64,000 nucleotides of DNA, taken from positions 1,116,001 through 1,180,000 of the forward strand of contig NC_014829.1 of NCBI RefSeq assembly GCF_000177235.2. The letters run 5' to 3'. This DNA comes from Evansella cellulosilytica DSM 2522 (GTDB taxonomy: Bacteria; Bacillota; Bacilli; Bacillales; Salisediminibacteriaceae). A program made the position numbers and the translations under genes. Below, one piece after another: positions 12,982 to 47,734 of this stretch (position 1 is the stretch's first letter; each line of letters begins with the position of its first letter). The notes beneath the pieces were generated by a model. The model saw nothing but the letters and a program-made list of their open reading frames with translations, did not search any database and was not told where the DNA came from.

Positions 12982-13025
12982 GGGACGGTTCTCCTTTGCC
13001 AAACGACGGCAAAGGAGAACCGTCC
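12982..13025. repeat. Inverted-pair GGGACGGTTCTC repeat interrupted on its right by a MITE-like element
   Basis: GGGACGGTTCTCCTTTGCC pairs with GGCAAAGGAGAACCGTCC around AAACGAC. Its last nine bases, GAACCGTCC (13017-13025), are repeated at 13376-13384 on the other side of the element that follows. Confidence 0.8.
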
Positions 13026-13375
13026 GAGACCGCTGAAAAAGTGTAAAAAATAATATATTGTTGCATTATTATTCAAAGTACCTAATTTATAGAAAGAGTT
13101 GATGAGACCGGAGCAAGCGAGGTAACTGTCTCTTCCTCTACGAGCATATGCTTTGAAGCGTATCCATCGAGACAACTCGTAGCATTAGCAACGAAGCAAC
13201 GCTCGTTCCTGCGGGAGAAAAGGCAGGGGTGAGACTACGTAGATGCAAAGCATCAAGGAGGCTCACCAGCCGCCCGTTGAAAGCGAGTTTGCACTGGTCT
13301 CAGCAACTTCTATATTCAAATACCTTTATATTTATTAGTCTATACTTAAAGGGTAAGTACTTTTTCACTGGTTTC
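13026..13375. mobile_element. MITE-like element, copy 1 (350 bp)
   Basis: A non-coding element with imperfect terminal inverted repeats (GAGACCGCTGAAAAAGT at the left; GAAACCAGTGAAAAAGT as complement of the right) and an inner inverted repeat GTTGATGAGACC/GGTCTCAGCAAC. It is flanked by a 9-bp direct repeat GAACCGTCC. Related copies are at 22225-22490 and 47365-47713. It carries an 84-bp inner module that copy 2 lacks. No transposase is encoded, so it would have to be mobilised in trans. Confidence 0.7.
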
Positions 13376-13410
13376 GAACCGTCCCTATTAACGGAGCAAG
13401 CGTTCATGCT

Positions 13411-13635
13411 CTATTTTAGTTTGGCAAACACCTTTCCAGTACTTAACTCACACCAATCATCTAATTCTTCATATTCATCCTTTTCCCCGTACTTTTTTAT
13501 AAAATCCTCCTTATTTTCATATATCTCCATCAAACCACTTTCAAGAAGCTTTACCGTTTGAAAAGTGTTTAATTGGAATACTTTAGAAACGACTATTACT
13601 TCACCTAAGTCGACTTTGCTGGCGATATTTTTCAT
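13411..13635 (-). CDS. Small protein of unknown function
   Basis: A 74-residue protein with a good AAAGGAGAA site 7 bp before its ATG. The sequence is acidic in its second half (EDFIKKYGEKDEYEELDDW) and ends VFAKLK. I do not recognise a family. It lies between a MITE-like copy and a run of repeat half-units, an island of accessory DNA. The strong ribosome site and ordinary amino-acid composition favour a real gene. Confidence 0.55.
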   Translation of the reverse strand: MKNIASKVDLGEVIVVSKVFQLNTFQTVKLLESGLMEIYENKEDFIKKYGEKDEYEELDDWCELSTGKVFAKLK

Positions 13636-13797
13636 TATTTCTTCTCCTTTTATAAATAGGGTTTTATACTGAATCGCTTCACATACTTAAGTTCTTATAG
13701 TGTGCTCGAAAGGCTGCAATAATATGGGGAAAGTTAGTAAAAGTATAGGATTTCTTTCGTATTGAGCAAAAAAGTAATCGGACTGTAGATAGAATCT

Positions 13798-13863
13798 GGC
13801 TAGTGAGAACCGTCCCTGTTAACTTCCTGACATTTTGGCAAGTGAGAACCGTCCCCATTAGCC
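13798..13863. repeat. Two single GAGAACCGTCCC repeat units
   Basis: GGCTAGTGAGAACCGTCCC (from 13798) and GGCAAGTGAGAACCGTCCCC ending ATTAGCC (13835-13863), both in the same orientation. Confidence 0.75.
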
Positions 13864-13939
13864 GTCGAAATGCTACTTTAGGACCTTGTTGCTTATCTTA
13901 TATACAATTACAATTTGAGCAAAATGGGGGTGGGGCTTC

Positions 13940-14920
13940 TTGCTAATTTATGAGAATAGTTTAAGTAGTATGGAAGGAATTCGATTTTGTGGCGATGAGT
14001 GTTCTATTGTTGAATGGCAAGAAAAGAAGTGTTTAAAAATGAATGGACTAGTTTTCTTTCCGGATGTTCAGCTTCGTAATGGGATGATTGAAGTGTTAAT
14101 AGGTGCTGATGATGTGACATATTGCGGAGTTGTGTTTCGAATGAGAGATCGTGCTAATTACGAGCTTGTTTATGTTCAACCTCATACGAGTGGTCGATGG
14201 GATGCATTACAGTATGACCCTGTTTTTCACGGAAGTAATACATGGCAGTTGTATCACGGAAAAGGGGCTCAGCAAGAAGCATCAATTTCTATGCATCGTT
14301 GGCATAAACTTCGTATAACCTTTCAAGAAAACACGGCTTTACTTCAACTTGATGACCAAACTCCTCTTGAAATCAAACCACTTGCGCATCGCAGTGATAA
14401 CGGAGAAATCGTCGGATTGTGGTGTTATAAACCTGCTTATTTTCGAGAGCTACGAGTTTGGAATAGTAGCAATTTAAGGGGAGAAAAGAGAGTGATAGGG
14501 CCAAAAGATACTTCCATTATCGATGAGTGGTTCCTTGAAGACTATGGTCGTGTTTGCGGTGAGTCGAGTCATCCTATTGTAAACTTGAATCGCTACCTGC
14601 CAGTTTCGATGACCGACGCATATTTAACAAGACGCTTTTGTCTAGAGGAAGATGGGGATGTGACATTGGATTTTGGATTTAGCGATGAAATTACTATTTT
14701 TATGAATGACACATTTATTTTTTCTGGAGAAAATATATTTAAAAACTCACCTCATTGGGGAGACCAAGGATACGTTCGTTTTTCTGAAACGGTGACAGTT
14801 CCTTTAAAGGCAGGAGAGCAGCAGTTGCGCATACACTTGAAACGAACTGAATATTTTGGATGGGGATTTCAATTAGCTCTACGTGGGAAAAACGTAAAGC
14901 TGATACAAGTCGATTATTAA
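13940..14920 (+). CDS. LamG/DUF1080-like beta-sandwich protein
   Basis: A 326-residue protein with no signal peptide. Residues about 20-175 look like the concanavalin-type DUF1080/3-keto-disaccharide-hydrolase fold (CGVVFRMRDRANYELVYVQP, HRWHKLRITFQENTALLQLD, GLWCYKPAYFRELRVW). Residues about 195-325 form a second beta domain (DVTLDFGFSDEITIFMNDTFIFSG..., LKAGEQQLRIHLKRTEYFGWGF) like sugar-binding jelly rolls. The ligand may be a carbohydrate but no catalytic residues can be named. The TTG start at 13940 has only a loose GGGGTGGGG site, so the exact N-terminus is uncertain. Confidence 0.65.
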   Translation: MLIYENSLSSMEGIRFCGDECSIVEWQEKKCLKMNGLVFFPDVQLRNGMIEVLIGADDVTYCGVVFRMRDRANYELVYVQPHTSGRWDALQYDPVFHGSNTWQLYHGKGAQQEASISMHRWHKLRITFQENTALLQLDDQTPLEIKPLAHRSDNGEIVGLWCYKPAYFRELRVWNSSNLRGEKRVIGPKDTSIIDEWFLEDYGRVCGESSHPIVNLNRYLPVSMTDAYLTRRFCLEEDGDVTLDFGFSDEITIFMNDTFIFSGENIFKNSPHWGDQGYVRFSETVTVPLKAGEQQLRIHLKRTEYFGWGFQLALRGKNVKLIQVDY

Positions 14921-15066
14921 AATATGAAGGGCATTTTACAGTTTCGACATTATTTTGTTATTAACGAAAACAATGAACAACCAGCGACAGTTAATCACTG
15001 TAGTCATATATTTTCATATTTAAATTATGTTATAACTATTAAATATACATTTGGGAGATAGAAAAC

Positions 15067-15840
15067 ATGAAATCATTTAAAACTACAAAAGAGAATTGGG
15101 ATGCAAACTTATATGATGAGAAGCATTCTTTTGTCTCGAAATATGGAGATAGCTTGATTGCATTGCTTGCACCAGAGAAAGGAGAAAAAATACTTGACCT
15201 CGGTTGTGGAACAGGAGACATAGCGAATACATTATACGAGTCTGGTGTTGATATTATTGGAGTAGACAAATCAGAAAATATGGTAAAACAAGCCATTGAT
15301 AAATACCCCCAGATACAGTTTATGGTTCAGGATGCGACAACTTTAGATTTTCGTTACGAATTTGATGCGGTATTCTCTAACGCTACGCTTCATTGGGTGA
15401 AATCCCCTATACAAGCATTACATTGTATTCATGAAAGCTTAAAACAAGGTGGGAGATTTGTTGCCGAATTTGGAGGAAAAGGGAATGTCCAAACAATAAC
15501 AAATGAAATTATTAAACAAATAGAAGAAGCTGGACATAAATTTAAAAAGGAACAATTCCCGTGGTTTTACCCAAGCATTGCAGAGTATTCTAGCTTAATG
15601 GAAGAAGTGGGTTTTAGAGTGACCTTTGCTCAGCATTTTGATAGACCAACTCAATTGGCTGGGGAAAATGGATTAAAGAATTGGATTGATATGTTCTGCA
15701 AACAGTTGTTTGACGGTATATCAGAGCGTTCAATAAATGAAATAATAACAGACGTCGAAAAAAATCTAAAGGGGTCACTATATAAAGAAGGTAATTGGAT
15801 TGCTGATTATAAACGGATTCGTATTATTGGTGTAAAATAG
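15067..15840 (+). CDS. Class I SAM-dependent methyltransferase
   Basis: A 257-residue enzyme with the Rossmann motif I ILDLGCGTGDIA (about residues 42-53), motif II IIGVDKSENMV and the later motif FDAVFSNATLHWVKSP. The overall pattern (LHWV, a C-terminal domain with GLKNWIDMF) resembles the trans-aconitate 2-methyltransferase and malonyl-ACP methyltransferase-like groups, but the substrate cannot be assigned. GGGAGA lies upstream of the ATG. It is a single gene closed by an A/T-rich hairpin. Confidence 0.9.
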   Translation: MKSFKTTKENWDANLYDEKHSFVSKYGDSLIALLAPEKGEKILDLGCGTGDIANTLYESGVDIIGVDKSENMVKQAIDKYPQIQFMVQDATTLDFRYEFDAVFSNATLHWVKSPIQALHCIHESLKQGGRFVAEFGGKGNVQTITNEIIKQIEEAGHKFKKEQFPWFYPSIAEYSSLMEEVGFRVTFAQHFDRPTQLAGENGLKNWIDMFCKQLFDGISERSINEIITDVEKNLKGSLYKEGNWIADYKRIRIIGVK

Positions 15841-15880
15841 CATTGTAAAGGGAGGGTGAGTTGCTTTTTTCCTTTTACAT

Positions 15881-15914
15881 AAAAAAACTCTCAACAAAAA
15901 TGGGAGTTTTTTTT
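15881..15914 (+). terminator. Terminator of the methyltransferase gene
   Basis: AAAAAAACTC pairs with GAGTTTTTTT around TCAACAAAAATGG. The symmetry would let it work in both directions. Confidence 0.75.
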
Positions 15915-16015
15915 ATACACAAAGCTAAGGAGAAGCTTGGAAAACTTTAAACAAAGTCAATGTAAATACATATATGAATCTATTTTTCTTTAAAATCAGA
16001 TAGCAAAAAATATGA

Positions 16016-16021
16016 TATAAT
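16016..16021 (+). promoter_or_regulatory. Candidate extended -10 of the split gene
   Basis: TGATATAAT (16013-16021) is an extended -10 about 35 bp before the TTG start at 16056. The -35 region is weak. Confidence 0.35.
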
Positions 16022-16055
16022 TGGTAGGAAACTGGAAAAGAGGGCTGTATACAGA

Positions 16056-16713
16056 TTGGTTAATAAGAAAAAAATTAGTTTAATTTTTATATTAATACTA
16101 GCTATTGTGACCGCAATGGAAACTTTTACTTTAATGACAGATAGTGATCAAATGGATATGGCAAATGAAGAAGTCTTAATTTCATTTAGGGATACATCCA
16201 TTACTAATTTTGATGCGATGGATTATCAACCGGTAGAAGAAATTGATATGTATGTTCGTGCTGAGGATTTATTATTTTTGGAGCTGGTCATTGTTGAGGC
16301 TGAATCTGATGGGTTTAAAGTAGATGAAACAGAAGTAAGCGAAGCAATCGCGCATTATGAGTATGAAAACCTAGTAACCAATCAAGAAGCCTACAACTTC
16401 ATAGAAGAAAAGGCTGTAAGAAGAAGGGCACTGAAAAAGTGATGTTCTTTCACTTTTCAGTGTCCTCGTAAGAAGAGGTATGTCAGTTGAAGATTTCTTA
16501 GATGAGATTTGGTTCCCTATATTAAAAAAGGCATTTATTCATTCACAGTATATTGCTTCAATGGTTGAGATAGAAGATGAAGGTGTAGATGTAGATAATT
16601 ACCGAGAGGCAATGGAGATAACTGATAAAGAATTAAGAAAAGAACTGTATGAAAAGTACAAACATGAAATAACTTTCCACTTTGATTCAAAATTTCCTAA
16701 TACGGCTGGATAG
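16056..16713 (+). pseudogene. Secreted or membrane-tethered protein split by a 43-bp palindromic insertion
   Basis: Two open frames, 16056-16442 (128 residues, N-terminal membrane anchor LIFILILAIVTAMETF) and 16480-16713 (77 residues), are the halves of one gene. Removing the 43-bp insert (16425-16467) and one copy of its 9-bp duplication GTAAGAAGA restores a single 201-residue frame reading ...EEKAVRRGMSVEDFLDEIW.... Both GTAAGAAGA copies are in the coding frame of their half. The restored protein resembles the N-terminal helical region of SurA-like chaperones (VSEAIAHYEYENLVT), with low certainty. Confidence 0.8.
16425..16467. mobile_element. 43-bp palindromic mini-element with 9-bp target duplication
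   Basis: The arms GGCACTGAAAAAGTG and CACTTTTCAGTGTCC flank a 10-bp loop. It is bounded by GTAAGAAGA at 16416-16424 and 16468-16476. Its reverse complement is nearly identical to 22134-22175, including the loop (GAAAGAACAY). The terminal CACTGAAAAAGT is shared with the 266-350-bp MITE-like elements, suggesting a minimal derivative of the same family. Confidence 0.75.
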
Positions 16714-16758
16714 AGAATGATTGGTGTAGATTAGTAAACAATTGAAAGGAAGATCTGC

Positions 16759-17280
16759 TTGGAAATATGGGATGTTTATGACAAAAACAGAAATATAACC
16801 GGGAAAACGATGAAGCGTGGAGAGCCTTTTGAAAAAGAGGCGTATCATCTCGTTGTGCATGTGTGCTTGTTTAACGAAAATGATGAAATGTTAATTCAAC
16901 AGCGACATCCCTTCAAAAAAGGTTGGCCGAATATGTGGGACATCTCTGTGGGAGGCAGTGCTGTTGCTGGAGATACAAGTCAACAAGCAGCGGAGCGAGA
17001 AGTGTTAGAGGAACTAGGCTATAAAATAAACTTACGAAATGTAAGACCCTCTTTAACGATAAACTTTGAATTCGGTTTCGATGATTATTTTCTTGTAGAT
17101 GTAAATCTTCCTATTAGTGAATTGACGTTGCAGCCTGAGGAAGTACAACGAGTGAAGTGGGCAACAAAGGAAGAAATCATGTCGATGATAGAGGAAGGAA
17201 TATTCATCCCATACCATAATAGTTTAATAGAGCTTTTATTTGATATGAGGAAACATATGGGTGGCCATAGACGGAAGTAA
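16759..17280 (+). CDS. Nudix hydrolase (Idi/YfcD-like)
   Basis: A 173-residue Nudix-family protein. The Nudix box reads GSAVAGDTSQQAAEREVLEELG, with Asp in place of the first Glu. The N-terminus (WDVYDKNRNITGKTMKRGE, then HLVVHVCLFNENDEMLIQQRHPFKKGWPNMWDIS) matches the subgroup that includes isopentenyl-diphosphate isomerase-like and YfcD proteins, which hydrolyse nucleoside diphosphate derivatives. It starts at TTG 16759 with AAAGGAAGA upstream. The substrate is unknown. Confidence 0.9.
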   Translation: MEIWDVYDKNRNITGKTMKRGEPFEKEAYHLVVHVCLFNENDEMLIQQRHPFKKGWPNMWDISVGGSAVAGDTSQQAAEREVLEELGYKINLRNVRPSLTINFEFGFDDYFLVDVNLPISELTLQPEEVQRVKWATKEEIMSMIEEGIFIPYHNSLIELLFDMRKHMGGHRRK

Positions 17281-17496
17281 AAGTATTAGGTGAGCTTTGT
17301 GAGAGGGGAAAGGAAGATAAACCTTACTTTTGAACTAATTGTTAGAAAAATGGTTGGATGTACTTCGGTAATGATTTCTGCCTTAAGTGTTAGGAAGTGG
17401 AATGCTACAAATAAGCGGGGCATCCATTATGAGGATAGGCAAGTGAGAAACGTCACTTCTAGTCTATCGATGAATTCCGGTGAATGAGACCCTCCT

Positions 17497-17582
17497 ATAT
17501 TAGTATTATTTAAATATAAAGCAAATGAGAACTTCCTATTAGTATTATTTAAATATAGGCAAATAAGAACCGTCCCTGTTAG
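17497..17582. repeat. Degenerate tandem repeat ending in a GAACCGTCCC unit
   Basis: Two copies of about 41 bp, each TTAGTATTATTTAAATATA followed by GGCAAATGAGAAC or a decayed version. The second ends AAGAACCGTCCCTGTTAGC. Confidence 0.6.
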
Positions 17583-17614
17583 CATATAGATTAAAGAAGT
17601 GAAGGAGGGATTTT

Positions 17615-18076
17615 ATGAGGATTTTATCTAGGGAAAATAAAGAAGAAGTAAGGAAGTTTATTGAGGAAAGTAAAGAAAGAGAATACGATGAGGGGAGAGA
17701 GCTTCAGAAAAATACGCAGCAAGCGATTAGGAATTTAAAAGAAGCACTCATCAGAAGTCAAAATAGCCCTGCTAATCAAAAAGAAGCATCAAGAAAAGAG
17801 ACTGTTCTTGAAATTGCCTATAAAATGGTGTCGGCGGGGGAGGAAGAAGCGAAGATTTATTCATACACTGGTGCAACAAAAGAAGAAATAAACTTTCTTT
17901 CTCGTTTGGCAAAGTCATTGAGATCTGCTAAAGGAAGCTTTGAAGCAGAAGGGAATAAAATTCAATCGCCTAATGTGGTTTTCAGTTGCCAAGAAGGAAA
18001 TGGTGTGAAAGCTTTTGTTAAAGATTCATTCGTTGCCGAGATGCAGGAGGACGGAAGCATTAAAACAAGCAATTAG
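17615..18076 (+). CDS. Unknown protein with charged helical N-terminus; possible Rpn/transposase-nuclease C-terminal relic
   Basis: A 153-residue protein with a perfect GAAGGAGGG ribosome site. Residues 1-60 are highly charged and helical. The middle (ETVLEIAYKMVSAGEEEAKIYSYTGATKEEINFL) recalls the C-terminal helices of Rpn-type PD-(D/E)XK recombination-promoting nucleases, where a [E..IAKKML..G....I...TGLS.EEI] pattern is frequent, but the nuclease core is absent. It may be a remnant or an independent small protein. Its terminator follows at 18166. Confidence 0.55.
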   Translation: MRILSRENKEEVRKFIEESKEREYDEGRELQKNTQQAIRNLKEALIRSQNSPANQKEASRKETVLEIAYKMVSAGEEEAKIYSYTGATKEEINFLSRLAKSLRSAKGSFEAEGNKIQSPNVVFSCQEGNGVKAFVKDSFVAEMQEDGSIKTSN

Positions 18077-18165
18077 TTAATCTGAAGCCCCACTGTTCTT
18101 TGTTTAGAGAGGTTGCATACTACATTTTGCATGGTTTACGAGTATTATTTCTCCTCAAATTCAGA

Positions 18166-18200
18166 GCATCTACTCCACATTAGTTGGATAGATGCTTTTT
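18166..18200 (+). terminator. Rho-independent terminator
   Basis: GCATCTA pairs with TAGATGC (with additional CCA/TGG pairing inside) followed by TTTTTCG, 90 bp after the preceding stop. Confidence 0.75.
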
Positions 18201-18233
18201 CGTTTCATTCATAACAACTGGCTCGGAATAGAT

Positions 18234-18260
18234 GGCAAATGAGAACCGTCCCTATTAGCC
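18234..18260 (+). repeat. Single GAGAACCGTCCC repeat unit
   Basis: GGCAAATGAGAACCGTCCC followed by TATTAGCC. Confidence 0.75.
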
Positions 18261-18369
18261 GGAATGTGAAACTTTGTTGTCATAGTTTTCGTATGTTTAT
18301 ATGAAAGAATTTAGTTAAGGTGGCAGGAGCTTTTTTGTAATAAAAAATAGAAAGAAGTGTTTTGATAAA

Positions 18370-19716
18370 ATGCTGGAAAAACGTAGTTGGGTTATTGTGA
18401 TATGGTTATGTACTTTTACATTGGTGCTAGGGTGTTCTACTGATGAACATAACGTTGAGGAGACTAGTCGTACTATTATTGGGTTGATGGTTAACGGTGA
18501 CCTAGAAGAAGTGGTTCACGACTTTTTTTCTGACGAATTAAAAAGCTCATTATCGCTCTCTGAATTTGAACAGACGTGGCATGGACGGATTGATGCTAGT
18601 GGGGAATACGTCGGAATAGATTCGTTACACGTTTCAAAAAGGGGAGAAGCATACGAGGTAGCGGAAATTGAATTAGAATATACAAATTTCATTTTACCTA
18701 TACGAATGATTTTTAACGAGAATAATCAACTAGTCAGTTTCCATCAAGGGGAGCCCGTCGTTAACGCCACTATTCCAGAAACGGTATTTGAAGAAGAGGT
18801 TGTTATCGGAGAAGGAACAGCGTATGAGCTAGGTGGAACATTAACATTACCTACTGAAATTGATGAAGCCACTCCTGCTGTCATTCTTGTTCATGGTTCA
18901 GGCCCACATGATAGAGACTCTACGATTTTTTCAAATAAGCCTTTTAAAGATATTGCGTGGAACGTTGCCCAAAATGGAATTGCCGTGTTGCGTTATGATA
19001 AACGAACGTATACACATGGTGAAAACATGTCGCAAGAGGAGATCAACGAGCTTACAGTCCATGAAGAAACAGTAGAGGATGCAATTTTGGCTGCGGAGCT
19101 TTTAAAGGATGACGGAAGAATTGATAAAAGCAATGTTTATGTGATAGGACATAGCTTAGGAGGCATGCTAGCACCAAGAATTGATGCAGCAGGTGGTGAC
19201 TTTGCAGGCATAATTATCATGGCAGGCTCTCCAAGGCCGCTTTGGGAAATTATTTATGACCAAAACATGGCTAGTATCCAGTCAGTAGACGAGTCTGAAC
19301 AACAGGAATTAATAAAGATGATCGAAGAGGAATACGAAAAAGCAACATCGTTAGGAGATGCACCTGTAGAAAGCATCATCGATGATACGATATTCGGATT
19401 ACCGGCAATTTATTTTAAAGATATGGAAATGCACGATACAAAACAGTTGCTAGCTGAGTTGGATAAGCCTGTGCTTGTTCTGCAAGGGGAAGATGACTTT
19501 CAAGTTTCTATGGAAAACGATTTTGCAATGTACAAAGATATTTTGAATGATCGAAAAAACGCTACTTTGATTAGTTATCCTCATTTAAATCATTTATTTA
19601 TGCACTTTGAAGGAGAAGGACAGGGGACAATCGCGGAATACCAGCATCCAGGTGTTGTTGATGACAAGGTGCTGAATGATATCGTTAATTGGCTGCTAGA
19701 GCAAGTGGGAAATTAG
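18370..19716 (+). CDS. Lipoprotein with DUF3887 and alpha/beta-hydrolase domains
   Basis: A 448-residue exported protein. The signal peptide ends with lipobox VLGC. Residues about 30-130 form a DUF3887/NTF2-like domain (EETSRTIIGLMVNGDLEEVVHDFFSDELKS). From about 150 to the end is an alpha/beta-hydrolase: VILVHGSGPHDRDS holds the oxyanion-hole strand, GHSLGG places the nucleophile at Ser262, GEDDFQV the acid and PHLNHLF the histidine. Such proteins are esterases or peptidases of unknown substrate at the membrane surface. No strong ribosome site is seen (AGAAAGAAGTG region), so the start is moderately certain. Confidence 0.88.
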   Translation: MLEKRSWVIVIWLCTFTLVLGCSTDEHNVEETSRTIIGLMVNGDLEEVVHDFFSDELKSSLSLSEFEQTWHGRIDASGEYVGIDSLHVSKRGEAYEVAEIELEYTNFILPIRMIFNENNQLVSFHQGEPVVNATIPETVFEEEVVIGEGTAYELGGTLTLPTEIDEATPAVILVHGSGPHDRDSTIFSNKPFKDIAWNVAQNGIAVLRYDKRTYTHGENMSQEEINELTVHEETVEDAILAAELLKDDGRIDKSNVYVIGHSLGGMLAPRIDAAGGDFAGIIIMAGSPRPLWEIIYDQNMASIQSVDESEQQELIKMIEEEYEKATSLGDAPVESIIDDTIFGLPAIYFKDMEMHDTKQLLAELDKPVLVLQGEDDFQVSMENDFAMYKDILNDRKNATLISYPHLNHLFMHFEGEGQGTIAEYQHPGVVDDKVLNDIVNWLLEQVGN

Positions 19717-22013: not shown

Positions 22014-22175
22014 GGTCACTGAAAAAGATCACTTTTTCAGTGCCTTTTATTTGTATTGCAGTCGCTCGCTTGATAGGAAAACCCCACTCCTATCAGGCTT
22101 TTTAACGATTGCGACGGCTCTGCACATTGCTTAGGACCACTGGAAAAGTGAAAGAACACCACTTTTTCAGTGACC
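22014..22175. repeat. Composite of two CACTGAAAAAGTG mini-palindromes
   Basis: The first palindrome (22014-22044) is GGTCACTGAAAAAG...CTTTTTCAGTGCC; the second (22134-22175) matches the gene-breaking 43-bp element in reverse. The outermost ends, GGTCACTGAAAAAG and CTTTTTCAGTGACC, are perfect inverted repeats, so the whole 162 bp could be one element. No target duplication was found. The 100 bp between them holds no gene. Confidence 0.55.
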
Positions 22176-22224
22176 TTGTGAATTAGCATATTTAAGTTTA
22201 TCAATAGGCAAACGAGGACCGTCC

Positions 22225-22490
22225 GAGACTGCTGAAAAAGTAGAAAACTTGATATTTTATTGTATTAATATTCAATATATCTAATTATAGAAAAGGTTGA
22301 TGAGACCGGAGCAAGCGAGACTCCTGCGGGAGAAAAGGCAGGGGTGAGACTACGTAGATGCAAAGCATCAAGGAGGCTCACCAGCCGCCCGCGGAAAGCG
22401 AGTTTGCACAGGTCTCATCAACTTCTATATTCAAATAACCTTATATTTATTAGTCTATACTTAAAGGGTAAGTACTTTTTCACTGGTTCC
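22225..22490. mobile_element. MITE-like element, copy 2 (266 bp, lacking the inner module)
   Basis: Ends GAGACTGCTGAAAAAGT and (complement of right) GGAACCAGTGAAAAAGT, inner inverted repeat GTTGATGAGACC/GGTCTCATCAAC. Flanks are GGACCGTCC (22216-22224) and GAACCGTCC (22491-22499), an 8/9 match, set between GGCAAACGA and CTATTTGCC of a dispersed repeat unit. Confidence 0.7.
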
Positions 22491-22624
22491 GAACCGTCCC
22501 TATTTGCCCTATTTACCGATTTTCCTCCCTCCAATGAGACAAGGCTTTGTCATTATTTTTCGAACAATGTTAGTAATGTTGAATACATTAGTATTGAAAA
22601 ATTAATTACTGAAAGGAGTAGATT

Positions 22625-24773: not shown

Positions 24774-24839
24774 AAATAAACACCCCAAAAGTTAGATTTT
24801 TCACTCTAACTTTTGGGGTGCACTACAGAACCGTCCCTA

Positions 24840-41375: not shown

Positions 41376-41447
41376 TTAACAAGTGGAATTATCCTTTGTT
41401 ATAATTCAGTTGAGAACATAAATTAATTAATTTTATTTACTAACTAA
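41376..41447 (+). promoter_or_regulatory. Promoter and ROK-type operator of the GH43 lipoprotein gene
   Basis: TTAACA (41376-41381), 18 bp, TATAAT (41400-41405), then AATTAATTAATTTTATTTAC followed by TAACTAA (41421-41447). On the opposite strand it reads AGTAAATAAAATTAATTAA, 19 bases identical to the site upstream of the M24-type gene. Confidence 0.65.
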
Positions 41448-41472
41448 AGATGGATGGATAGGAGTGAGACTT

Positions 41473-42534
41473 ATGAGAGATAGAATACTAGGTTTAGCAA
41501 TACTGATTATTTTATTAATACTAGGAAGCACAGCTTGTTCAAGTGAAACAGACTTAGAATTAGAAGGCGAGGCTGGACCAGAATATCAAAACCCTGTATT
41601 TGAACCTGTTATTGCAGACCCATCCATTATTAAAGCGGATGATGGCTTTTATTACGTATATGGAACAGAAGATAACTGGGGAGACGGTATGGGTTCACGT
41701 GTAGTTCCAATAGTAAGGTCCGAAAATCTCGTGGATTGGGAGTATGTAGGAGAAGCGTTTCATGAAAAGCCAAGCTGGAAAGAGGACGGAGGAATTTGGG
41801 CACCAGATATCGTTTACTTCAATGACAAATACTATTTATACTACTCTCAATCTACTTGGGGAGATGCTAATCCTGCAATTGGTGTAGCTACTTCTGATAC
41901 ACCGAAGGGACCATTTGAAGATCAAGGAAAAGTGTTCGATAGTAAAGAGATTGGGGTTAACAACTCAATTGATCCGCAGCTGTTTATTGATGACGATGGT
42001 ACTCCTTATTTATTCTGGGGTAGTTGGTACGGTATCTGGGGAATTGAAATGAGTGAGGATGGTTTTGATCACGTAGGAGAGAAGTTCCAAATTGCAGGGA
42101 CGGCCTTTGAGGCACCTTACATTATTAAGCGCGATGACTATTATTACTTCTTTGGATCAAAAGGTTCGTGCTGTGAAGGTCAGTGGAGTCAATATCGTGT
42201 AGCAATTGGTCGGTCAGATTCATTGAAGGGACCGTATGTCGACAAAAATGGAAGCGATATCATCCGTTCAACTGGAACGCTCATTCTTCAAGAGGGCGAG
42301 CAATTTGTTGGACCAGGACATAACGCAATAGTTACTGACGAGGCTGGTCAGGATTGGATGATTTACCATGCGATAGATAAAGATGAAGCCTGGATTGGGA
42401 GCGGTGTAACCCGTCGTCCGTTAATGCTAGATAAAGTCATCTGGGAAGATGGGTGGCCAACAATCGAAGGTGGTGTACCAGGTGAAGGGGTGCAGGAAGG
42501 TCCTATTACAGAGGCATTTCTTAGCGGTCAATAA
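41473..42534 (+). CDS. GH43 arabinanase-like lipoprotein
   Basis: A 353-residue lipoprotein: start ATG 41473 (the GTG at 41464 lies in the ribosome site), lipobox GSTAC, then a single GH43 propeller. Catalytic residues are Asp49 (ADPS), Asp167 (IDPQ) and Glu213 (FEAP). It is closely similar, block for block, to the propeller of the wall-anchored enzyme at 32077, with the same GSKGSCCEG...GPYVDKNG and FVGPGHNA motifs, so one probably arose by duplication of the other. Anchored on the membrane, it could further shorten oligosaccharides for the importer. Confidence 0.9.
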   Translation: MRDRILGLAILIILLILGSTACSSETDLELEGEAGPEYQNPVFEPVIADPSIIKADDGFYYVYGTEDNWGDGMGSRVVPIVRSENLVDWEYVGEAFHEKPSWKEDGGIWAPDIVYFNDKYYLYYSQSTWGDANPAIGVATSDTPKGPFEDQGKVFDSKEIGVNNSIDPQLFIDDDGTPYLFWGSWYGIWGIEMSEDGFDHVGEKFQIAGTAFEAPYIIKRDDYYYFFGSKGSCCEGQWSQYRVAIGRSDSLKGPYVDKNGSDIIRSTGTLILQEGEQFVGPGHNAIVTDEAGQDWMIYHAIDKDEAWIGSGVTRRPLMLDKVIWEDGWPTIEGGVPGEGVQEGPITEAFLSGQ

Positions 42535-42660
42535 GGAAAAGTCGGTAATATGTATAGAAATGGACAGTTGTTATATGCACGTAGTAGATTTCTCACGCTA
42601 GTATACTACTAATATTGGAGAAAGATAATAAAATTAATCAACAAATAAGTGCAATACGCC

Positions 42661-42722
42661 TTGAACCAGATCGTTTCATCATATAATATGGTAGTTATAG
42701 TAAATAAAATTAATTAACAAAC
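42661..42722 (+). promoter_or_regulatory. Promoter and ROK-type operator of the M24-GH2-GH43 operon
   Basis: TTGAAC (42661-42666), 15 bp, TATAAT (42682-42687), then TAGTAAATAAAATTAATTAA followed by CAAAC (42699-42723). The spacer is short, but operator placement matches the other three promoters. Confidence 0.55.
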
Positions 42723-42764
42723 TGTGTGGATGATTGATATTTTAATAGAAAAGTAGTTTTGGAT

Positions 42765-42862
42765 GAATTAAACGGTGCTTCGGATGATTTCAACGAAGCT
42801 AGACATGATTTTAACGGAGTTGGACATGATTCCATCGAAGTCACACATGATTTTTCATTTAA
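42765..42862 (+). repeat. 21-bp tandem repeats in the leader of the M24-type gene
   Basis: Three and a half copies of a GATTT.AACG.AG...GACAT-like 21-mer (for example GATTTTAACGGAGTTGGACA). They are in frame with the downstream gene but lie upstream of its ribosome site. Confidence 0.65.
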
Positions 42863-42905
42863 ATGGCACTTAACTATTTATCCTCTTCAGAAAGGAGGGA
42901 GTGTT

Positions 42906-44000
42906 TTGCAGCAAACTGCAGCTCCCGTAAAAAAACTAACAGATTGGTTAGAAAAAGAAGGCTATGACGGGATACTACTCAGAAAACGTCAAAACTTCTC
43001 GTGGATAACAGGAGGGAAGGTTAATCATATTGAAAATACAACTGAATATGGCGTAGCTGATTTATTGATTATCCCTAGGATTAACAAAAAGTATTGTTTT
43101 ACATCCAAAATGGAGTCGAGACGAATAATGGAAGAAGAGCTAAATGATTTTGACTTTGAATTAGTTGAATGCGAATGGTATGAGAGTATCATCCCTCTTA
43201 TTAGAAAGCATATAGAAGGAAAGATGATCGTCGGTGATTCGACTTTCCTCGGTCTAGAAGATGTTTCCTCAGAATTGGCGTATTTGCGAAGCCAACTATC
43301 GGAAACAGAAATTACTAACTATAAATGGCTCTGTCAAAAGGCTGCTGGGGCATTGGAAAATGTTTGCCATGAAATTAAACGTGGAATGACAGAGCACGAG
43401 ATTGCTGCACTTCTTGCACAAAAGGTAATGGAAGATGGTATTAATCCACAGGTCATTTTAGTTGCAACAGATGAAAGAATTTTTAATTACCGCCATCCGA
43501 TACCAACAGCAAAGAAACTTGAAAACTATGCAATGATCGTTATATGCGCAGAAAAGTTCGGCCTTGTTGCAAACTGTACGAGATTTGTCCACTTCGGAGA
43601 GTTGCCTGAAACGTTGAGAGAGAATACACAAAAGCTAGCGAAGATTGATATTACTATGAATATGGCAACGAAGCCTGGTGTTAGAATAAATGAAGTTTTT
43701 GAGAAAGGGCTACAAGCCTATGCGGAAGTAGGATTTCCAGAAGATTGGCGTTTTTTACATCAAGGAGGATTAACAGGGTTTGCACCGCGGGAGTTTTTAG
43801 CAAGCAGGGAGACAGATCATATTATCGTTAAAAACCAAGCGTTTGCTTGGAATCCAGCAATTCGCGGCATTAAATCAGAGGATACTATTTTTGTAGATGA
43901 AGAAGGTAATCAATTTCTGACGCATACAGGGAATTGGGTTTACATTGAAGTAGAGTACGATGGGAAAATCTATAAACGCCCAGATGTCCTTGTTCGTTAA
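42906..44000 (+). CDS. M24 (pita-bread fold) peptidase-like protein with altered metal site
   Basis: A 364-residue protein started at TTG 42906, with AAAGGAGGG 6 bp upstream; longer readings run through non-coding tandem repeats. Residues 1-130 form a creatinase/aminopeptidase-P N-terminal domain (LTDWLEKEGYDGILLRKRQNFSWITGG), and the rest is the M24 fold. Of the usual D-D-H-E-E ligands, the two Asp positions read ICAE (Cys214) and ANCTR (Asn223), and the first Glu region reads AWNP. His in RFLHQGG and Glu in SEDTIFVDEEG remain. Like creatinase, it may work without metals. It is first gene of an operon with GH2 and GH43. Confidence 0.75.
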   Translation: MQQTAAPVKKLTDWLEKEGYDGILLRKRQNFSWITGGKVNHIENTTEYGVADLLIIPRINKKYCFTSKMESRRIMEEELNDFDFELVECEWYESIIPLIRKHIEGKMIVGDSTFLGLEDVSSELAYLRSQLSETEITNYKWLCQKAAGALENVCHEIKRGMTEHEIAALLAQKVMEDGINPQVILVATDERIFNYRHPIPTAKKLENYAMIVICAEKFGLVANCTRFVHFGELPETLRENTQKLAKIDITMNMATKPGVRINEVFEKGLQAYAEVGFPEDWRFLHQGGLTGFAPREFLASRETDHIIVKNQAFAWNPAIRGIKSEDTIFVDEEGNQFLTHTGNWVYIEVEYDGKIYKRPDVLVR

Positions 44001-44054
44001 TAAAATTACTAGTTGAAATTATTAATCTATTAGTATAAAAAGGAGTGTTTCATA

Positions 44055-45833
44055 ATGTCTATACCACGTCCAGAATATCCACGCCCCCAGTTTGTTCGTG
44101 AGAAATGGATCAACTTAAACGGAGAGTGGCAGTTTGATTATGATGATGAAAACAAAGGGTTAGAAAACAAATGGTTTAAAAAAGAGCACAATCATTTTTC
44201 TAAAAAGATAAACGTACCTTTCAGCTATCAAAGTGAATTAAGTGGAATTGGAGAAACAGCCTTTCACGATTTAGTTTGGTATAAACGCAGCTTTACCGTA
44301 CCTGCTGATTGGGCAGGTCAGCGGATTCACCTACATTTTGGCGCTGTCGACTACCGTACATGGGTGTGGGTGAACGGGGAATTCGTTACATACCACGAAG
44401 GTGGTCACGTACCATTCCAAGCCGATATCACAGATGTACTTCTTGATGAAGAAAACGAAGTTGTCGTCCGTGTAGAAGATCCTTCCAAGGATTTAGATCA
44501 GCCTCGTGGTAAGCAGTATTGGGAAGAAAAATCAGAAGGGATATTTTATCTAAGAACAACAGGTATTTGGCAGACGGTATGGATAGAAGCAGTGCCAACG
44601 ACATTTTTAGAAAAAGTGAAAATGACGCCGGACATTGATAAAGATGAACTTACTGTAGAGTATGTTGTAAATGGAGGTAAGCCAGATTATCAACTTGAAA
44701 TCGAGATCATGTTTGATGGGAATCACGTGTCACATGATGTTATCCAGCTTACGACAAACAAGGGGACGCGCAGCATCCTACTCAACGACTTTAACGTTCA
44801 TGGTCCAGGTAGACTGTGGAGTCCGGAGAATCCTAACTTATATGATATTAACTTCCGTATCAAGGATGGATTGGACGTAGTAGATGAAGTGACTAGTTAT
44901 TTTGGGATGAGAAAGATCTCTATTGAAAATGGCATAGTCATGTTAAATAATCATCCGTACTATATGAAGCTCGTACTTGACCAAGGTTATTTTCCAACAG
45001 GAATGTTAACGCCTCCATCGGATGAAGATATAAAAAATGATATTAAGTTAACGAAAGAAATGGGATTCAATGGTGCGCGAAAGCACCAAAAAATTGAGGA
45101 TCCACGATACCTCTATTGGGCAGATAAACTTGGCATTCTCGTATGGGGAGAAATGGCCAACGCCTACACGTACACAAATGATGCTGTCCGTCGTATGACA
45201 GCAGAGTGGCAAGAAGCAGTAGAGCGTGACTACAATCATCCATCTATTGTTGCATGGGTACCAGTAAACGAAAGCTGGGGTGTGCCAAGGCTTCTAAGTG
45301 ACAAGCGCCAGCAAGACCATACTTTAGCAATGTATTATTTAACGAAATCATTAGACGCTACTCGCCTTGTTATTTCGAACGATGGCTGGGAGCATACGAA
45401 ATCGGATATGTGTACGATTCACGACTATGAAAGTGATAAAGAGGTACTCAAAGAGCGTTATAACACCGTTGAAAATATCATGAAGTCACTGCCAGGTAAC
45501 CGCCTTATTTATGTACCGGGCTATAAGTACGATGGGGAACCAATTCAAGTTACCGAATTTGGTGGTATTGCCTATAAGAAAAGTGACTGGGATGGGTGGG
45601 GTTATTCTGGTGCTACAAATGATAAAGACTTTGAAGAAAAATATTATAAAGTAGTATCGGCTATGCTCGAGTCTCCACTTGTTCAGGGCTTCTGTTATAC
45701 GCAATTAACCGATGTTGAACAAGAAATTAACGGGTTATTAACGTATGACCGTAAACCGAAAATCGACTTAGATATTATTAAGCAAATTAATGAAGGGCGT
45801 AAAATAAGACGATTCTCCACAGAGAAGGAGTGA
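44055..45833 (+). CDS. Glycoside hydrolase family 2 (beta-galactosidase-like)
   Basis: A 592-residue cytosolic enzyme. Residues 1-180 are the sugar-binding jelly roll (RPQFVREKWINLNGEWQF...HFGAVDYRTWVWVNGEF), 185-280 the immunoglobulin-like domain, and 285-590 the TIM barrel. The acid/base is Glu406 in VNESWG and the nucleophile Glu501 in TEFGG. The protein lacks a signal peptide and is shorter than LacZ, like many GH2 enzymes of pectin or arabinogalactan loci. A 6-bp gap to the following GH43 gene indicates one operon. Beta-galactosidase activity is suggested by nearby galKET but is not proven. Confidence 0.88.
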   Translation: MSIPRPEYPRPQFVREKWINLNGEWQFDYDDENKGLENKWFKKEHNHFSKKINVPFSYQSELSGIGETAFHDLVWYKRSFTVPADWAGQRIHLHFGAVDYRTWVWVNGEFVTYHEGGHVPFQADITDVLLDEENEVVVRVEDPSKDLDQPRGKQYWEEKSEGIFYLRTTGIWQTVWIEAVPTTFLEKVKMTPDIDKDELTVEYVVNGGKPDYQLEIEIMFDGNHVSHDVIQLTTNKGTRSILLNDFNVHGPGRLWSPENPNLYDINFRIKDGLDVVDEVTSYFGMRKISIENGIVMLNNHPYYMKLVLDQGYFPTGMLTPPSDEDIKNDIKLTKEMGFNGARKHQKIEDPRYLYWADKLGILVWGEMANAYTYTNDAVRRMTAEWQEAVERDYNHPSIVAWVPVNESWGVPRLLSDKRQQDHTLAMYYLTKSLDATRLVISNDGWEHTKSDMCTIHDYESDKEVLKERYNTVENIMKSLPGNRLIYVPGYKYDGEPIQVTEFGGIAYKKSDWDGWGYSGATNDKDFEEKYYKVVSAMLESPLVQGFCYTQLTDVEQEINGLLTYDRKPKIDLDIIKQINEGRKIRRFSTEKE

Positions 45834-45839
45834 GAGTGA

Positions 45840-47234
45840 ATGGGCTATAAAAATCCTGTCATTTCCATTCAAGGAATGGACCATGGTGATCCTGCGGTGT
45901 GCAAATATAACGGGAAGTATTACTTGTATCACACAGGACCTAGGGAAATTCGCGTGTATGAATCAGTAAATTTAATAGATTGGGAGCTGCAGGGGATAGC
46001 ACTACACGCTTCGGATGATCCAGATCATTGGGCACAAATCGGACTTTGGGCGCCAGAGATCATACACGAAAATGGCACCTTCTATATGTATGTAACTGCA
46101 GCACTTATGAATTCGGATGGTTCTGAAAACGATGACGTACGTCGCATCGGTGTTGCTACGAGTAAAAACCCATTGGGGCCATTCACGCTTGCACCCCAGC
46201 CGTTAACGGATGAGTGGTCTATTGACGCCCATCCTTTTAAAGACGAAGATGGCACTTATTATATGTTTTATAATGTTCGGAACGAGTATACGAGAGGACC
46301 GAATGGTGTGATAGGGACAGGAAATGTAGTAGACCGGATGGCGGATCTTACTAGTTTAAGTGGTAATCCTACGATGGTAGTCAAGCCAGAGCATCTTTGG
46401 GAAGGAAACAAGGACCATTCGTTTTTCTGGAATGAAGGTCCGTTTGTCCTGAAACGAAATGGAAAGTACTTTCAAATGTACAGTGCTGGTTTTTTCGGAG
46501 ATGATACGTATGGCGTCTACTATGCTACTTCTGATACGCCAAAAGGTGAGGGCGGCATGGAAGATACAAGCTGGTCGAAATGGGGGGATGGCGAGCCAAT
46601 TCTTAGAACGAATGAGGCTTGTCTTGGCCCCGGTCACCATGTCGTTGTAAAAGGCCCGGATGGAGTAGGTGATTACATTATTTATCATGGATACGAGCCT
46701 GGTGAGAATGTACGAGAACGGAGAGTTCGAGTAGGACGCTTTCGGTGGAATGGAGATAACATTTGGCTCGAGCCCCCTAGCTTAGACACACTCCCAACAC
46801 CTACGATGCCAACGTTCGATGGCAGGTTTTTACCTTCCATTTCTCAAATTAACGAACAGTTACTTAAGCACATGTACGAGAATTATTTTTTTGAAACGAA
46901 TGTGCGTACTGGTGGGAAAAGTGCTTCTGGCGATGCCTGCTATGTTGATGAAGCGAATGCGGTGCGCTGGATCATCGACCCTAAGGAGAAAACAGTGAAG
47001 ATTTACGCTGTAAAAGGTGGGGAGGAAATGGCTAATAATACAGTTGCTTTACAAGCGAATTTTAATGAAGAAGCCTACCATCTTTTCCAAGTAGAAAAAC
47101 GTGGAAGTGTGCTGAAAATCTTTTTGAATAAACTCCTTGTGGCAGAAGTGGACAGTGGTTTTTCTGAAGGAAAAGGAATCGTGAGGGTGAATGAAGGGAA
47201 AGTGGCCGGTACAATCCTGACCAAATTACCTTAA
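45840..47234 (+). CDS. Cytosolic GH43 glycosidase (arabinofuranosidase/galactosidase-type)
   Basis: A 464-residue enzyme without signal peptide. Residues about 10-310 form the GH43 propeller with GDPAVCKYNGKYYLY (Asp base), SIDAHPF (pKa-modulating Asp) and NEGPFVLK (Glu acid). Residues about 330-464 are a LamG-like sandwich (FFETNVRTG...YHLFQVEKRGSVLKIFLNKLLVAEVDSG). Only distantly similar to the two exported GH43 enzymes, it most likely removes single sugars from imported oligosaccharides. AGAAGGAGTG precedes the ATG. Confidence 0.88.
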   Translation: MGYKNPVISIQGMDHGDPAVCKYNGKYYLYHTGPREIRVYESVNLIDWELQGIALHASDDPDHWAQIGLWAPEIIHENGTFYMYVTAALMNSDGSENDDVRRIGVATSKNPLGPFTLAPQPLTDEWSIDAHPFKDEDGTYYMFYNVRNEYTRGPNGVIGTGNVVDRMADLTSLSGNPTMVVKPEHLWEGNKDHSFFWNEGPFVLKRNGKYFQMYSAGFFGDDTYGVYYATSDTPKGEGGMEDTSWSKWGDGEPILRTNEACLGPGHHVVVKGPDGVGDYIIYHGYEPGENVRERRVRVGRFRWNGDNIWLEPPSLDTLPTPTMPTFDGRFLPSISQINEQLLKHMYENYFFETNVRTGGKSASGDACYVDEANAVRWIIDPKEKTVKIYAVKGGEEMANNTVALQANFNEEAYHLFQVEKRGSVLKIFLNKLLVAEVDSGFSEGKGIVRVNEGKVAGTILTKLP

Positions 47235-47292
47235 TTAGTAAATATCCTAGGGCGAATAAGGCCTTGGACCTGTTAGAAAATGGATCATGAAA

Positions 47293-47326
47293 ACGGTTCT
47301 TGTTAGTAGATGGCTAATAAGGACCG
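47293..47326. repeat. Degenerate inverted-pair ACGGTTCTT repeat
   Basis: ACGGTTCTTGTTAG pairs with CTAATAAGGACCGT around TAGATGG, about 60 bp after the GH43 stop. It may help terminate the operon. Confidence 0.65.
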
Positions 47327-47364
47327 TCTCAATTAGCCTTTTGATTGGCTAACGAGAACCGTCC

Positions 47365-47713
47365 GGAACCGCTGAAAAAGTGTAAAAATTAATATATTGA
47401 TGCATTATTATTCAAAGTACCTAATTAGAGAAAGAGTTGATGAGACCTGAGCAAACGAGGTAACTGTCTCTTCCTCTACGAGCATATGCTTTGAAGCGTA
47501 TCCGTCGAGACAACTCGTAGCATTAGCGACGAAGCGACGCTCGTTCCTGCGGGAGAAAGGGCAGGGGTGAGACTACGTAGATGCAAAGCATCAAGGAGGC
47601 TCACCAGCCGCCCGCGGAAAGCGAGTTTGCATAGGTCTCTTCAACCCCTATATTCTAATAACCTTATATTTATTAGGGGGCTCTCTAAATGCAAGTACTT
47701 TTTCACTGGTTCC
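47365..47713. mobile_element. MITE-like element, copy 3 (349 bp)
   Basis: Ends GGAACCGCTGAAAAAGTG and (complement of right) GGAACCAGTGAAAAAGTA, with the same inner module as copy 1. It is flanked by GAACCGTCC at 47356-47364 and 47714-47722; outside these the host unit reads GGCTAACGA on the left and CCGTTAGC on the right. Confidence 0.75.
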
Positions 47714-47734
47714 GAACCGTCCCCGTTAGCTATG

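Follow-up and report, generated by a model that had tools for sequence, protein, structure and literature searches.

The window, i.e., the whole stretch of 64,000 nucleotides of Evansella cellulosilytica DSM 2522 that was analysed (contig NC_014829.1, positions 1,116,001 to 1,180,000), contains three copies of a short repeated element. As the first-pass annotation had proposed, each copy lies between direct repeats of the 9-mer GAACCGTCC, with one base changed at copy 2; this was confirmed from the sequence. The features are the following (positions in the window).

12983..13025, unstranded: REP pair, i.e., two inverted REP cores with a 7-nt spacer; copy 1 entered the right core
13017..13025, + strand: GAACCGTCC, target duplication left of copy 1, also one arm of the REP pair 12983-13025
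13026..13375, + strand: MITE copy 1, A-type ends, 350 bp
13376..13384, + strand: GAACCGTCC, target duplication right of copy 1
22207..22215, + strand: left arm of the REP split by copy 2 (GGCAAACGA)
22216..22224, + strand: GGACCGTCC, target duplication (one base changed) left of copy 2
22225..22490, + strand: MITE copy 2, A-type ends, 266-bp form without an internal stretch of ~85 bp
22491..22499, + strand: GAACCGTCC, target duplication right of copy 2
22500..22508, + strand: right arm of the REP split by copy 2 (CTATTTGCC)
47347..47355, + strand: left arm of the REP split by copy 3 (GGCTAACGA)
47356..47364, + strand: GAACCGTCC, target duplication left of copy 3
47365..47713, + strand: MITE copy 3, A-type ends, 349 bp
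47365..47381, + strand: left terminal inverted repeat of copy 3 (GGAACCGCTGAAAAAGT)
47697..47713, + strand: right terminal inverted repeat of copy 3 (ACTTTTTCACTGGTTCC)
47714..47722, + strand: GAACCGTCC, target duplication right of copy 3
47723..47730, + strand: right arm of the REP split by copy 3 (CCGTTAGC)

The left ends of copies 1, 2 and 3 are GAGACCGC, GAGACTGC and GGAACCGC, respectively, followed by TGAAAAAGT, and the right ends of all three are ACTTTTTCACTGGTTYC. With a length of 266-357 bp, terminal inverted repeats of 17 bp and no coding capacity (the longest ORF overlapping copy 3 has 57 aa), the element is a MITE. As single-stranded DNA, the 266-bp form gives a good fold (z = -6.2), which is attributed to an internal inverted repeat. 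An Rfam scan of the window gave nothing at the gathering threshold; in a relaxed scan the sole match in 47300-47780, RAGATH-1-hammerhead, reaches 22.7 bits vs. a gathering threshold of 56.3 (E = 0.18) and is considered as a chance match. The window had also been described as devoid of transposase. This holds for the two families covered, since none of the nine DUF772 or three Y1_Tnp matches of the genome is located inside.

The repeat split by the MITE

REP sequences rank among the frequent repeats of bacteria, and it is debated whether they benefit anything but themselves. The repeat split by the MITE is a 27-bp unit, GGCTAATGA-GAACCGTCC-CCATTAGCC. Its core is found 138 + 127 times in the 4.68-Mb genome, vs. 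5 + 6 for the reversed control pattern, thus the excess is not due to chance. The unit is a short palindrome, extragenic and present in high copy number (265 exact cores genome-wide). The REP pair at 12983-13025 is a perfect 18-bp inverted repeat. The window holds 36 cores, 31 of which are unoccupied by the element, with arms that pair at 4.6 of 9 positions (2.4 for random). Only one of the 36 overlaps an ORF of 150 aa or more, though such ORFs cover 75% of the window (their list left out one antisense ORF). The idea of a gene-free landing site fits these values.

Most REPs bear a GTAG or CGTC tag at one end, according to the passages on REPs in PMC3733652. By eye, neither tag is found at the ends of the 27-bp unit, in which CGTC is internal, within the centre; the unit is therefore named REP-like. 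The genome has three RAYT-like genes, whose proteins match PF01797 above its cut-off; their best match is NF047646, with 69.5, 75.5 and 49.1 bits, i.e., below the cut-off of 80. Core-like sites flank a RAYT-like gene on both sides at one locus only (L043), and a REP split by the MITE lies directly downstream of one of these genes (L043/L102). As in the REP/RAYT systems described in passages of PMC2817692 and PMC3733652, the repeat is short, extragenic and palindromic, has more than 100 copies, occurs as singles and inverted pairs and is found in a genome with RAYT-like genes. It differs from those of PMC3733652 by its ends without GTAG or CGTC and by RAYT-like proteins that stay below the NCBIfam cut-off. 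The 53 sites of a longer REP pattern show opposite strand bias in two REP blocks.

Insertion sites across the genome

The MITE exists in tens of copies genome-wide (50 BLAST matches, several of which are pieces of one copy). The right-end pattern occurs at 38 places. Three were dropped, i.e., 396149 (B-type end), 4133665 (left end of L003) and 4016459 (19 similar bases only, no element); the 35 used and L015 (1-base indel) make up the 36 A-type copies, including L104, whose data come from a separate junction search. The flanking 9-mers of these copies were tabulated, a check advised by the first-pass annotation, and most copies lie inside GAACCGTCC: at a tolerance of 2 mismatches, 35/36 copies have the core on one side or both, and 30/34 have it at both ends (exact at both in 22). 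The two flanking 9-mers are identical in 24 of the 34 copies with both ends tabulated. Variant cores are duplicated as well, GATCCGTCC being found twice at L009 and GGACGGACC twice at L035; at L012 a 10-bp variant core, GGACCCGTTC, is present twice. This faithful duplication of variant cores indicates true 9-bp target duplications. The A-type copy L016 occupies a site that is not a REP (GGAAGTAT); L046, which combines an A-like left end with a B-type right end, is outside REPs as well.

The core is found in both orientations relative to the element (18:16 for 34 A-type copies). On the right, the outer flanks of 30 copies show no relation to each other (mean pairwise identity 0.28), i.e., the long-distance identity that would mean a composite is absent. 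Together with the core in 35/36 copies and the matched variant cores, these results strongly support the view, already held in the first-pass annotation, that separate pre-existing GAACCGTCC units each received an independent insertion. One argument initially given for it does not stand. The outer flanks match across the element at copies 2 and 3, but at copy 1 the right side (CTATTAACG) is a poor match to the left-side REP arm. Moreover, in 30 copies of this genome the arms pair at 5.40 of 11 positions vs. 5.68 when shuffled (9729/10000 permutations at least as good), so that pairing within sites is no better than between sites and matching flanks are not a general proof of independent insertion. 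The arms of the 31 unoccupied cores in the window also pair no better within than between sites (9558/10000 permutations).

A sister form, the B-type MITE, has its interior in common with the A-type, while ends and targets differ. None of the 20 B-type loci fetched is in a REP core, although REPs are plentiful. Ten loci with a clear 8-10-bp duplication were tested, the duplication finder picking the best of many offsets; 9 others have no clear duplication or end, and L052, which scored 9/10, was left out because its ends are nested and ambiguous. Five of these 10 copies pair at least 9 of 14 arm positions (null 0.009 each), i.e., a subset is located at the centres of other palindromes.

Autonomous elements of the IS1182 family

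The ends of the MITE match those of autonomous IS1182-family ISs of congeners (Litchfieldia alkalitelluris, Evansella sp.), other Bacilli and Clostridia. These partner ISs are mostly 1.7-1.8 kb long, with a single transposase gene and GRRACCNNTGAAAAAG-like ends on both sides. The transposase of Litchfieldia alkalitelluris (P0001) contains PF05598, PF13751 and PF01609; with 368 bits for NF033551 (cut-off 270) it is an IS1182-family transposase, as are those of L078 (376 bits) and L087 (351 bits). The core is duplicated on both sides of the ~1.8-kb congeneric ISs L078 (G004), L079 (G006) and L093 (G001), and is present at the one readable end of L080.

The sample of relatives comprises 59 loci, 57 with a readable end and 28 with both, which are not independent: one Rossellomorea and one Aquibacillus genome contribute 8 loci each, Litchfieldia 5 and Gracilibacillus 4, and the 4 of Pontibacillus seemingly stem from two assemblies of one strain. 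The exact core is found in 36/57 loci, and 52/57 have at least one end that differs from it by no more than 2 mismatches; a random 9-mer would come this close with a chance of ~0.0015. The 9-mers are identical in 19 of the 28 loci with both ends readable. Five of the 57 loci are outside the core at the 2-mismatch tolerance, L177 and L209 have inverted and not direct cores, and two congeneric IS copies have variant sites with 8-bp direct repeats (GACAGTCC at L086, GAACTTTC at L098 (L198)). Among 23 control loci of other IS1182 groups, taken from this genome and congeners, the exact core is found in 2, i.e., L068, where it is at least 57 bp outside the element, and L095, whose ends are unmapped. 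Transposase-bearing relatives thus hit the same core across many Bacillota, which argues for a real targeting habit and not a coincidence.

In 15 of 16 host genomes GAACCGTCC outnumbers the reversed control, by ~2-fold (G022, G024) to ~20-fold; Peribacillus acanthi (G014) has no core excess (13 vs. 18 for the control). The REP arms vary between genera although the core is shared. Within the 28 loci, 19 distinct IS sites have both flanks near the core and at most 1 base apart (duplicates removed). Their arms pair at 6.63 of 10 positions vs. 5.25 when shuffled between sites, and 0/10000 shuffles are as good. These sites were thus already palindromic when the insertions took place.

A transposase with matching element ends, which the first-pass annotation had recommended to look for, is found in other Bacillota, congeners included. 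A search of the window's own genome for a REP-clade IS1182 transposase was negative (best tblastn match: 24% identity, 17.8 bits). The other IS1182-type IS of this genome (six copies with a 491-aa frame, one of 362 aa, two fragments) was rejected as a partner, its ends being TGAATCAATTTCAT and its protein ~19-24% identical to the REP clade. The enzyme and the MITE are consequently paired through the ends and the target duplication, which the MITE shares with the autonomous IS1182 elements. A REP-clade IS1182 transposase presumably mobilised the MITE; a point against this is that the matches listed between the MITE and 30 IS loci do not extend beyond the terminal ~17 bp.

Mechanism, target choice and known systems

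The junctions, as read from the sequence, display a 9-bp duplication, a REP-core target, both orientations, and ends and target in common with autonomous IS1182 elements. It is very probable that the MITE is a non-autonomous IS1182-family derivative, moved in trans and inserted at the REP-core 9-mer with a 9-bp duplication. An IS1182-family DDE transposase supplied in trans would bind the terminal repeats (GRRACCNNTGAAAAAGT) and excise or copy the MITE, which would then be joined across a 9-bp staggered cut at GAACCGTCC. Since GAACCGTCC is the fixed centre of intergenic REP-like palindromes, gap repair would leave one core per side and split the palindrome at its axis. The transposase itself presumably chooses the target, aided by the palindromic form of the site.

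Shape and not sequence could also guide the enzyme, i.e., it would enter the loop of any palindrome (cruciform) and hit REPs as the commonest ones. Such a route has been proposed for IS1272, of the IS1182 family. It targets inverted repeats without sequence homology, according to the passages on its targets in PMC5678879. The B-type copies at the centres of other palindromes (5/10) and the few A-type insertions outside REP cores (L016, L198, L212) are also consistent with recognition of shape. However, the exact 9-mer is too frequent (36/57 IS loci, despite arms that differ between genera), no B-type copy of the 20 is in a REP core though REPs are plentiful, and the 31 unoccupied cores of the window are poor cruciforms; recognition of shape is thus rather unlikely. 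That the REP machinery (RAYT tyrosine transposase) or homologous recombination between REPs spread the MITE, instead of a DDE transposase, is very improbable. The genome does contain three RAYT-like genes, with a MITE-split REP directly downstream of one, but perfect 9-bp duplications, both orientations and IS1182-type terminal repeats are a DDE signature, the same junctions are found at autonomous IS1182 copies, and recombination cannot create the second copy of a private variant core. Least tenable is a REP-MITE composite moving as a unit, with GAACCGTCC as part of the element: the core is indeed at both ends of most copies, but the flanking cores are repeated directly and not inverted, they point either way at random with respect to the element, variant cores match within a copy and differ between copies, flanks further out are dissimilar and many cores have no element, so that for the copies examined this reading is refuted.

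Insertion by an IS1182 transposase at the REP core has partial precedents. The targeting of one dispersed repeat by another had been considered unusual in the first-pass annotation; the passages of PMC1525189 on REP-recognising ISs already list ISPsy8, ISPa11, ISPpu9, ISPpu10, ISRm22, ISRm19, IS1397, ISKpn1 and IS621, with IS3, IS110, IS4, IS256 and IS5 as families, Proteobacteria as hosts and, in the cases given, a duplication that is absent or of 2-6 bp. There, (nearly) every copy breaks the REP at one fixed position, and ISPsy8 and ISRm22 enter it at its axis of symmetry; the element is flanked by what is left of the broken REP. Nearly all MITE and IS1182 copies also break the REP at one fixed position; they differ by the IS family, by the existence of a MITE, by their hosts (Bacillota) and by the 9-bp duplication. 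In type 1 of the same passages 100% of copies are at the same REP position, vs. 35/36 MITE copies and 52/57 IS loci here (2 mismatches).

The passages on IS1272 in PMC5678879 describe deletion of the target inverted repeat without duplication and targets without common sequence; duplication of the loop is named only as an alternative route of the model. Here the target is likewise an inverted repeat, as seen from arm pairing at the 19 IS sites; in contrast to IS1272, insertion duplicates the 9-bp centre, preserves the arms and takes place at a fixed sequence. The ISMac2-derived MITEs of Methanosarcina acetivorans (160 and 169 bp, 14 and 7 copies) are also short non-autonomous derivatives of the IS1182 family. 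They differ from the A-type MITE in being archaeal and of other sizes, and the passages on them in PMC3852290 mention no REP target. Thus (i) REP-targeting ISs of five other families, (ii) targeting of inverted repeats by IS1272 and (iii) IS1182 MITEs are known already. Among the matches listed for PMC open-licence full text there is no report of IS1182 elements in REPs; in the passages concerned, PMC10433421, PMC7911792 and PMC3852290 mention IS1182 and REP in unrelated places.

The finding extends the five REP-recogniser families of PMC1525189 (2006) by one transposase family and joins two published strands, i.e., REP targeting and IS1182 targeting of inverted repeats. An unrelated transposon family would use the fixed core of REPs as an address across Bacillota, so that tens of copies can be reached without gene breakage. 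It would also represent a DDE transposase with a 9-bp sequence-specific target, the basis of which is testable by core and arm swaps, and the A/B MITE pair (interior common, ends and targets different) is a natural experiment on target determinants. A broader proposal, put forward tentatively and held to be somewhat short of probable, is that an IS1182 clade of Bacilli and Clostridia has specialised on the REP core GAACCGTCC, constant between genera, as a phylum-wide gene-free landing pad, and that in the lineage of the window the two end types of the MITE have split the targets, A going to REP cores and B to the 9-bp centres of other palindromes. If true, a small change in the transposase and the ends could switch target choice.

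Window copies and their REP-like target

The three MITEs reported in the first-pass annotation are present in the window sequence as described there:
window 13026-13375, copy 1
window 22225-22490, copy 2 (266-bp form)
window 47365-47713, copy 3

Each copy has imperfect terminal inverted repeats of 17 bp and, outside these, a direct repeat of 9 bp, GAACCGTCC (the core), which reads GGACCGTCC on the left side of copy 2. The longest ORF overlapping copy 3 has 57 aa. In copy 2, positions ~94-177 of the 266-bp form are a GC-rich interior (CCTGCGGGAG...AGGCTCACCAGCCGCCCGCGGAAAGCGAG), itself a dispersed repeat: it has matches in 7 of the 9 genus genomes, counting the own genome, and three congeners contain more than 40 element matches. 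Three plasmids of Priestia megaterium match it too. As cargo, the MITE apparently carries a repeat common in Bacillaceae.

The core occupies the centre of a short palindrome, typically GGCTAATGA-GAACCGTCC-CCATTAGCC, which the window contains both as single units and as inverted pairs. The 9-mer occurs 265 times in the genome (vs. 11 for the reversed control); the window holds 36 exact cores, 28 on the + strand and 8 on the − strand. Only one of these 36 overlaps an ORF of 150 aa or longer, whereas such ORFs cover 75% of the window, in agreement with the proposal of a gene-free landing site. The unit matches REP sequences in its size and copy number, its partial palindromy and its location outside genes. 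Neither a GTAG nor a CGTC tag was seen at its ends; it is thus named «REP-like». The genome has three RAYT-like genes (PF01797 above cut-off; the best model for the proteins is NF047646, with a score below its cut-off), one of which is flanked on both sides by core-like sites. At window ~24783-24836, a hairpin (CCCCAAAAGTTAGA...TCTAACTTTTGGGGTGCACTACA) that looks like the end-to-end palindrome of another IS precedes a REP core, and the identical junction adjoins a RAYT-like gene at locus L043.

A longer REP pattern, ATGAGAACCGTCC, occurs 53 times, always within one of two chromosomal blocks, 1.12-1.45 Mb (21 +, 3 −) and 4.13-4.60 Mb (9 +, 20 −). The bare core is found additionally at 0.54, 0.67 and 0.95 Mb.

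End types and targets across the genome

A BLAST of the genome with copy 3 gave 50 matches. The MITE has two end types, A and B. The search for the right-end pattern gave 38 places, 35 of which were retained as A-type; 396149 (a B-type end), 4133665 (the left end of L003) and 4016459 (no element) were dropped. L015, which has a 1-base indel in its end, brings the A-type total to 36. Both ends were tabulated for 34 copies (33 by script, plus L003). The core is present on both sides, exactly in 22 of these 34 and with at most 2 mismatches in 30; the flanking 9-mers are identical in 24. L012 has a 10-bp version, GGACCCGTTC, at both sides. L002, L054 and L028 have the core (at most 2 mismatches) at one side only, and L104, which has lost its left end, has it at the right. 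The site of L016 is not a REP; the repeat there has 8 bp, GGAAGTAT. In total, 35 of 36 A-type copies are tied to the REP core, and the claim that most copies lie within it holds genome-wide.

Private variants of the core are duplicated within single copies (GATCCGTCC at L009, GGACGGACC at L035, the 10-bp form at L012), thus the repeat was made at insertion. Relative to the element, the core is oriented one way in 18 copies and the other way in 16. The outer right flanks of 30 A-type copies are unrelated (mean identity 0.28), against the movement of one composite. A-type MITEs track the two REP blocks, the copies at 951011 and 3288416 being the exceptions; B-type copies are dispersed over the whole chromosome.

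B-type copies share the interior of A-type copies and have ends like GAGGCCACTGAAAAAGT. None of the 20 B-type loci fetched has the REP core at its ends, the sole near-match (1 mismatch) being L019, with junctions reading CGATGAAAG. L046, also among the 20, is A-like at its left end (GAGACCGC) and B-type at its right end, and it does not lie in a REP. L028 is a chimera (B left end, A right end) with the REP core only at its A side. In nearly all copies, the type of end thus corresponds to the type of target. A clear duplication of 8-10 bp is seen at 10 of the 20 B-type loci, and 5 of these 10 are at the centre of another palindrome with arms paired at 9 or more of 14 positions (null ~0.009 each): L024, L026, L033 and L233 pair at 12-14, L031 at 9, the remaining five at 5-8. 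Some of these palindromes are composed of a CACTGAAAAAGTG sequence almost identical to that of the B ends. In a short palindrome at window 22134-22175, two IS-like ends flank a centre of 9 nt (GGACCACTGGAAAAGTG-AAAGAACAC-CACTTTTTCAGTGACC); the genome has further units similar to it, and B-type MITEs have split some of them at the centre.

IS1182 elements with MITE-like ends

A transposase with matching ends, evoked in the first-pass annotation, is found in congeners and not in the own genome, where nothing close to the partner was detected. The DUF772 transposases of the own genome, seven copies (of which six have a 491-aa frame) and two fragments, belong to another IS1182 type with ends unrelated to the MITE. 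The DUF772 search of nine genus genomes, own included, gave IS elements of ~1.8 kb with ends like GGAACCAGTGAAAAAGT and a transposase of the IS1182 family according to NCBIfam.

Insertion sites of IS elements with MITE-like ends
L078, genome G004: IS between two core copies
L079, Evansella-like genome G006: IS between two core copies
L093, Litchfieldia alkalitelluris (G001): IS between two core copies
L080, G001: IS with the core at its one readable end
L086: IS in a GACAGTCC variant site, 8-bp repeat
L098: IS in a GAACTTTC site, 8-bp repeat

Among the matches listed, the MITE and 30 IS loci resemble each other in DNA only over the terminal ~17 bp. L087 (genome G008), an IS with B-type ends and a transposase 29% identical, is a candidate partner of the B set. 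In G006, a 99-bp piece (L149) shares 78% identity with the right-hand third of the MITE; the right end of this piece, GGAATCAGTGAAGAAG, adjoins GGAACCTTC and a REP-like arm (ggctaaca). It is possibly an old MITE relic.

The transposase scan, with one genome per species, gave 59 loci in Litchfieldia, Evansella, Rossellomorea, Peribacillus, Gracilibacillus, Pontibacillus, Oceanobacillus, Aquibacillus, Pseudalkalibacillus, Anaerovirgula, Syntrophomonas, Alkaliphilus and others. Some taxa contribute several of these loci (Rossellomorea 8, Aquibacillus rhizosphaerae 8, Litchfieldia 5, Gracilibacillus 4, Pontibacillus 4), which do not count as independent. Among the 57 relatives' loci with a readable end, the core is exact in 36 and present with at most 2 mismatches at one end or more in 52. 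The five exceptions are L182 (GGACGTACC twice), L212, L216, L219 and L223. Identical 9-mers are found at 19 of 28 loci with both ends. The core exceeds the reversed control in 15 of 16 host genomes, the exception being Peribacillus acanthi. As a control, the exact core is found anywhere in only 2 of 23 loci of other IS1182 groups (own genome and congeners), i.e., L068, at least 57 bp outside the element, and L095, whose ends are not mapped; for several of these groups, whose ends are not mapped, the control rests on how rarely the core occurs at all within the locus.

At 19 distinct sites, the arms pair better within a site (6.63/10) than between sites (5.25/10; 0 of 10000 shuffles as good), thus insertions split pre-existing palindromes. 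At L177 and L209, both full-length IS1182, the flanking cores are inverted, not direct, and REP arms lie outward of both; an inversion between copies or a different integration outcome is possible. At L217 and L227, the IS1182 ends directly abut GAACCGTCC plus another IS end, which looks like one core shared by two elements.

Mode of insertion

ISs targeting REPs are published for the IS3, IS110, IS4, IS256 and IS5 families (passages of PMC1525189), and IS1182-family MITEs are listed in Methanosarcina acetivorans (passages of PMC3852290). No report of IS1182 elements or their MITEs in REPs was found among the best-ranked matches in open-licence PMC text.

The best reading is DDE transposition with a 9-bp stagger at the REP axis. 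The 9-bp duplication, its position and the ends common with the IS are established; the DDE transposase would proceed by cut-and-paste or copy-out, with the stagger centred on that axis. According to passages of PMC5678879, IS1272 targets inverted repeats and replaces them without duplication; a purely shape-driven targeting of this kind may be behind part of the preference. The REP arms vary by genus (Rossellomorea, GAAGCATG; Gracilibacillus, GAAACA; Syntrophomonas, GGACAAGG; own genome, GGCTAATGA) while the core is constant. Because of this constancy over changing arms, the sequences suggest that the enzyme of the DDE transposition reads the core as sequence, the palindrome assisting.
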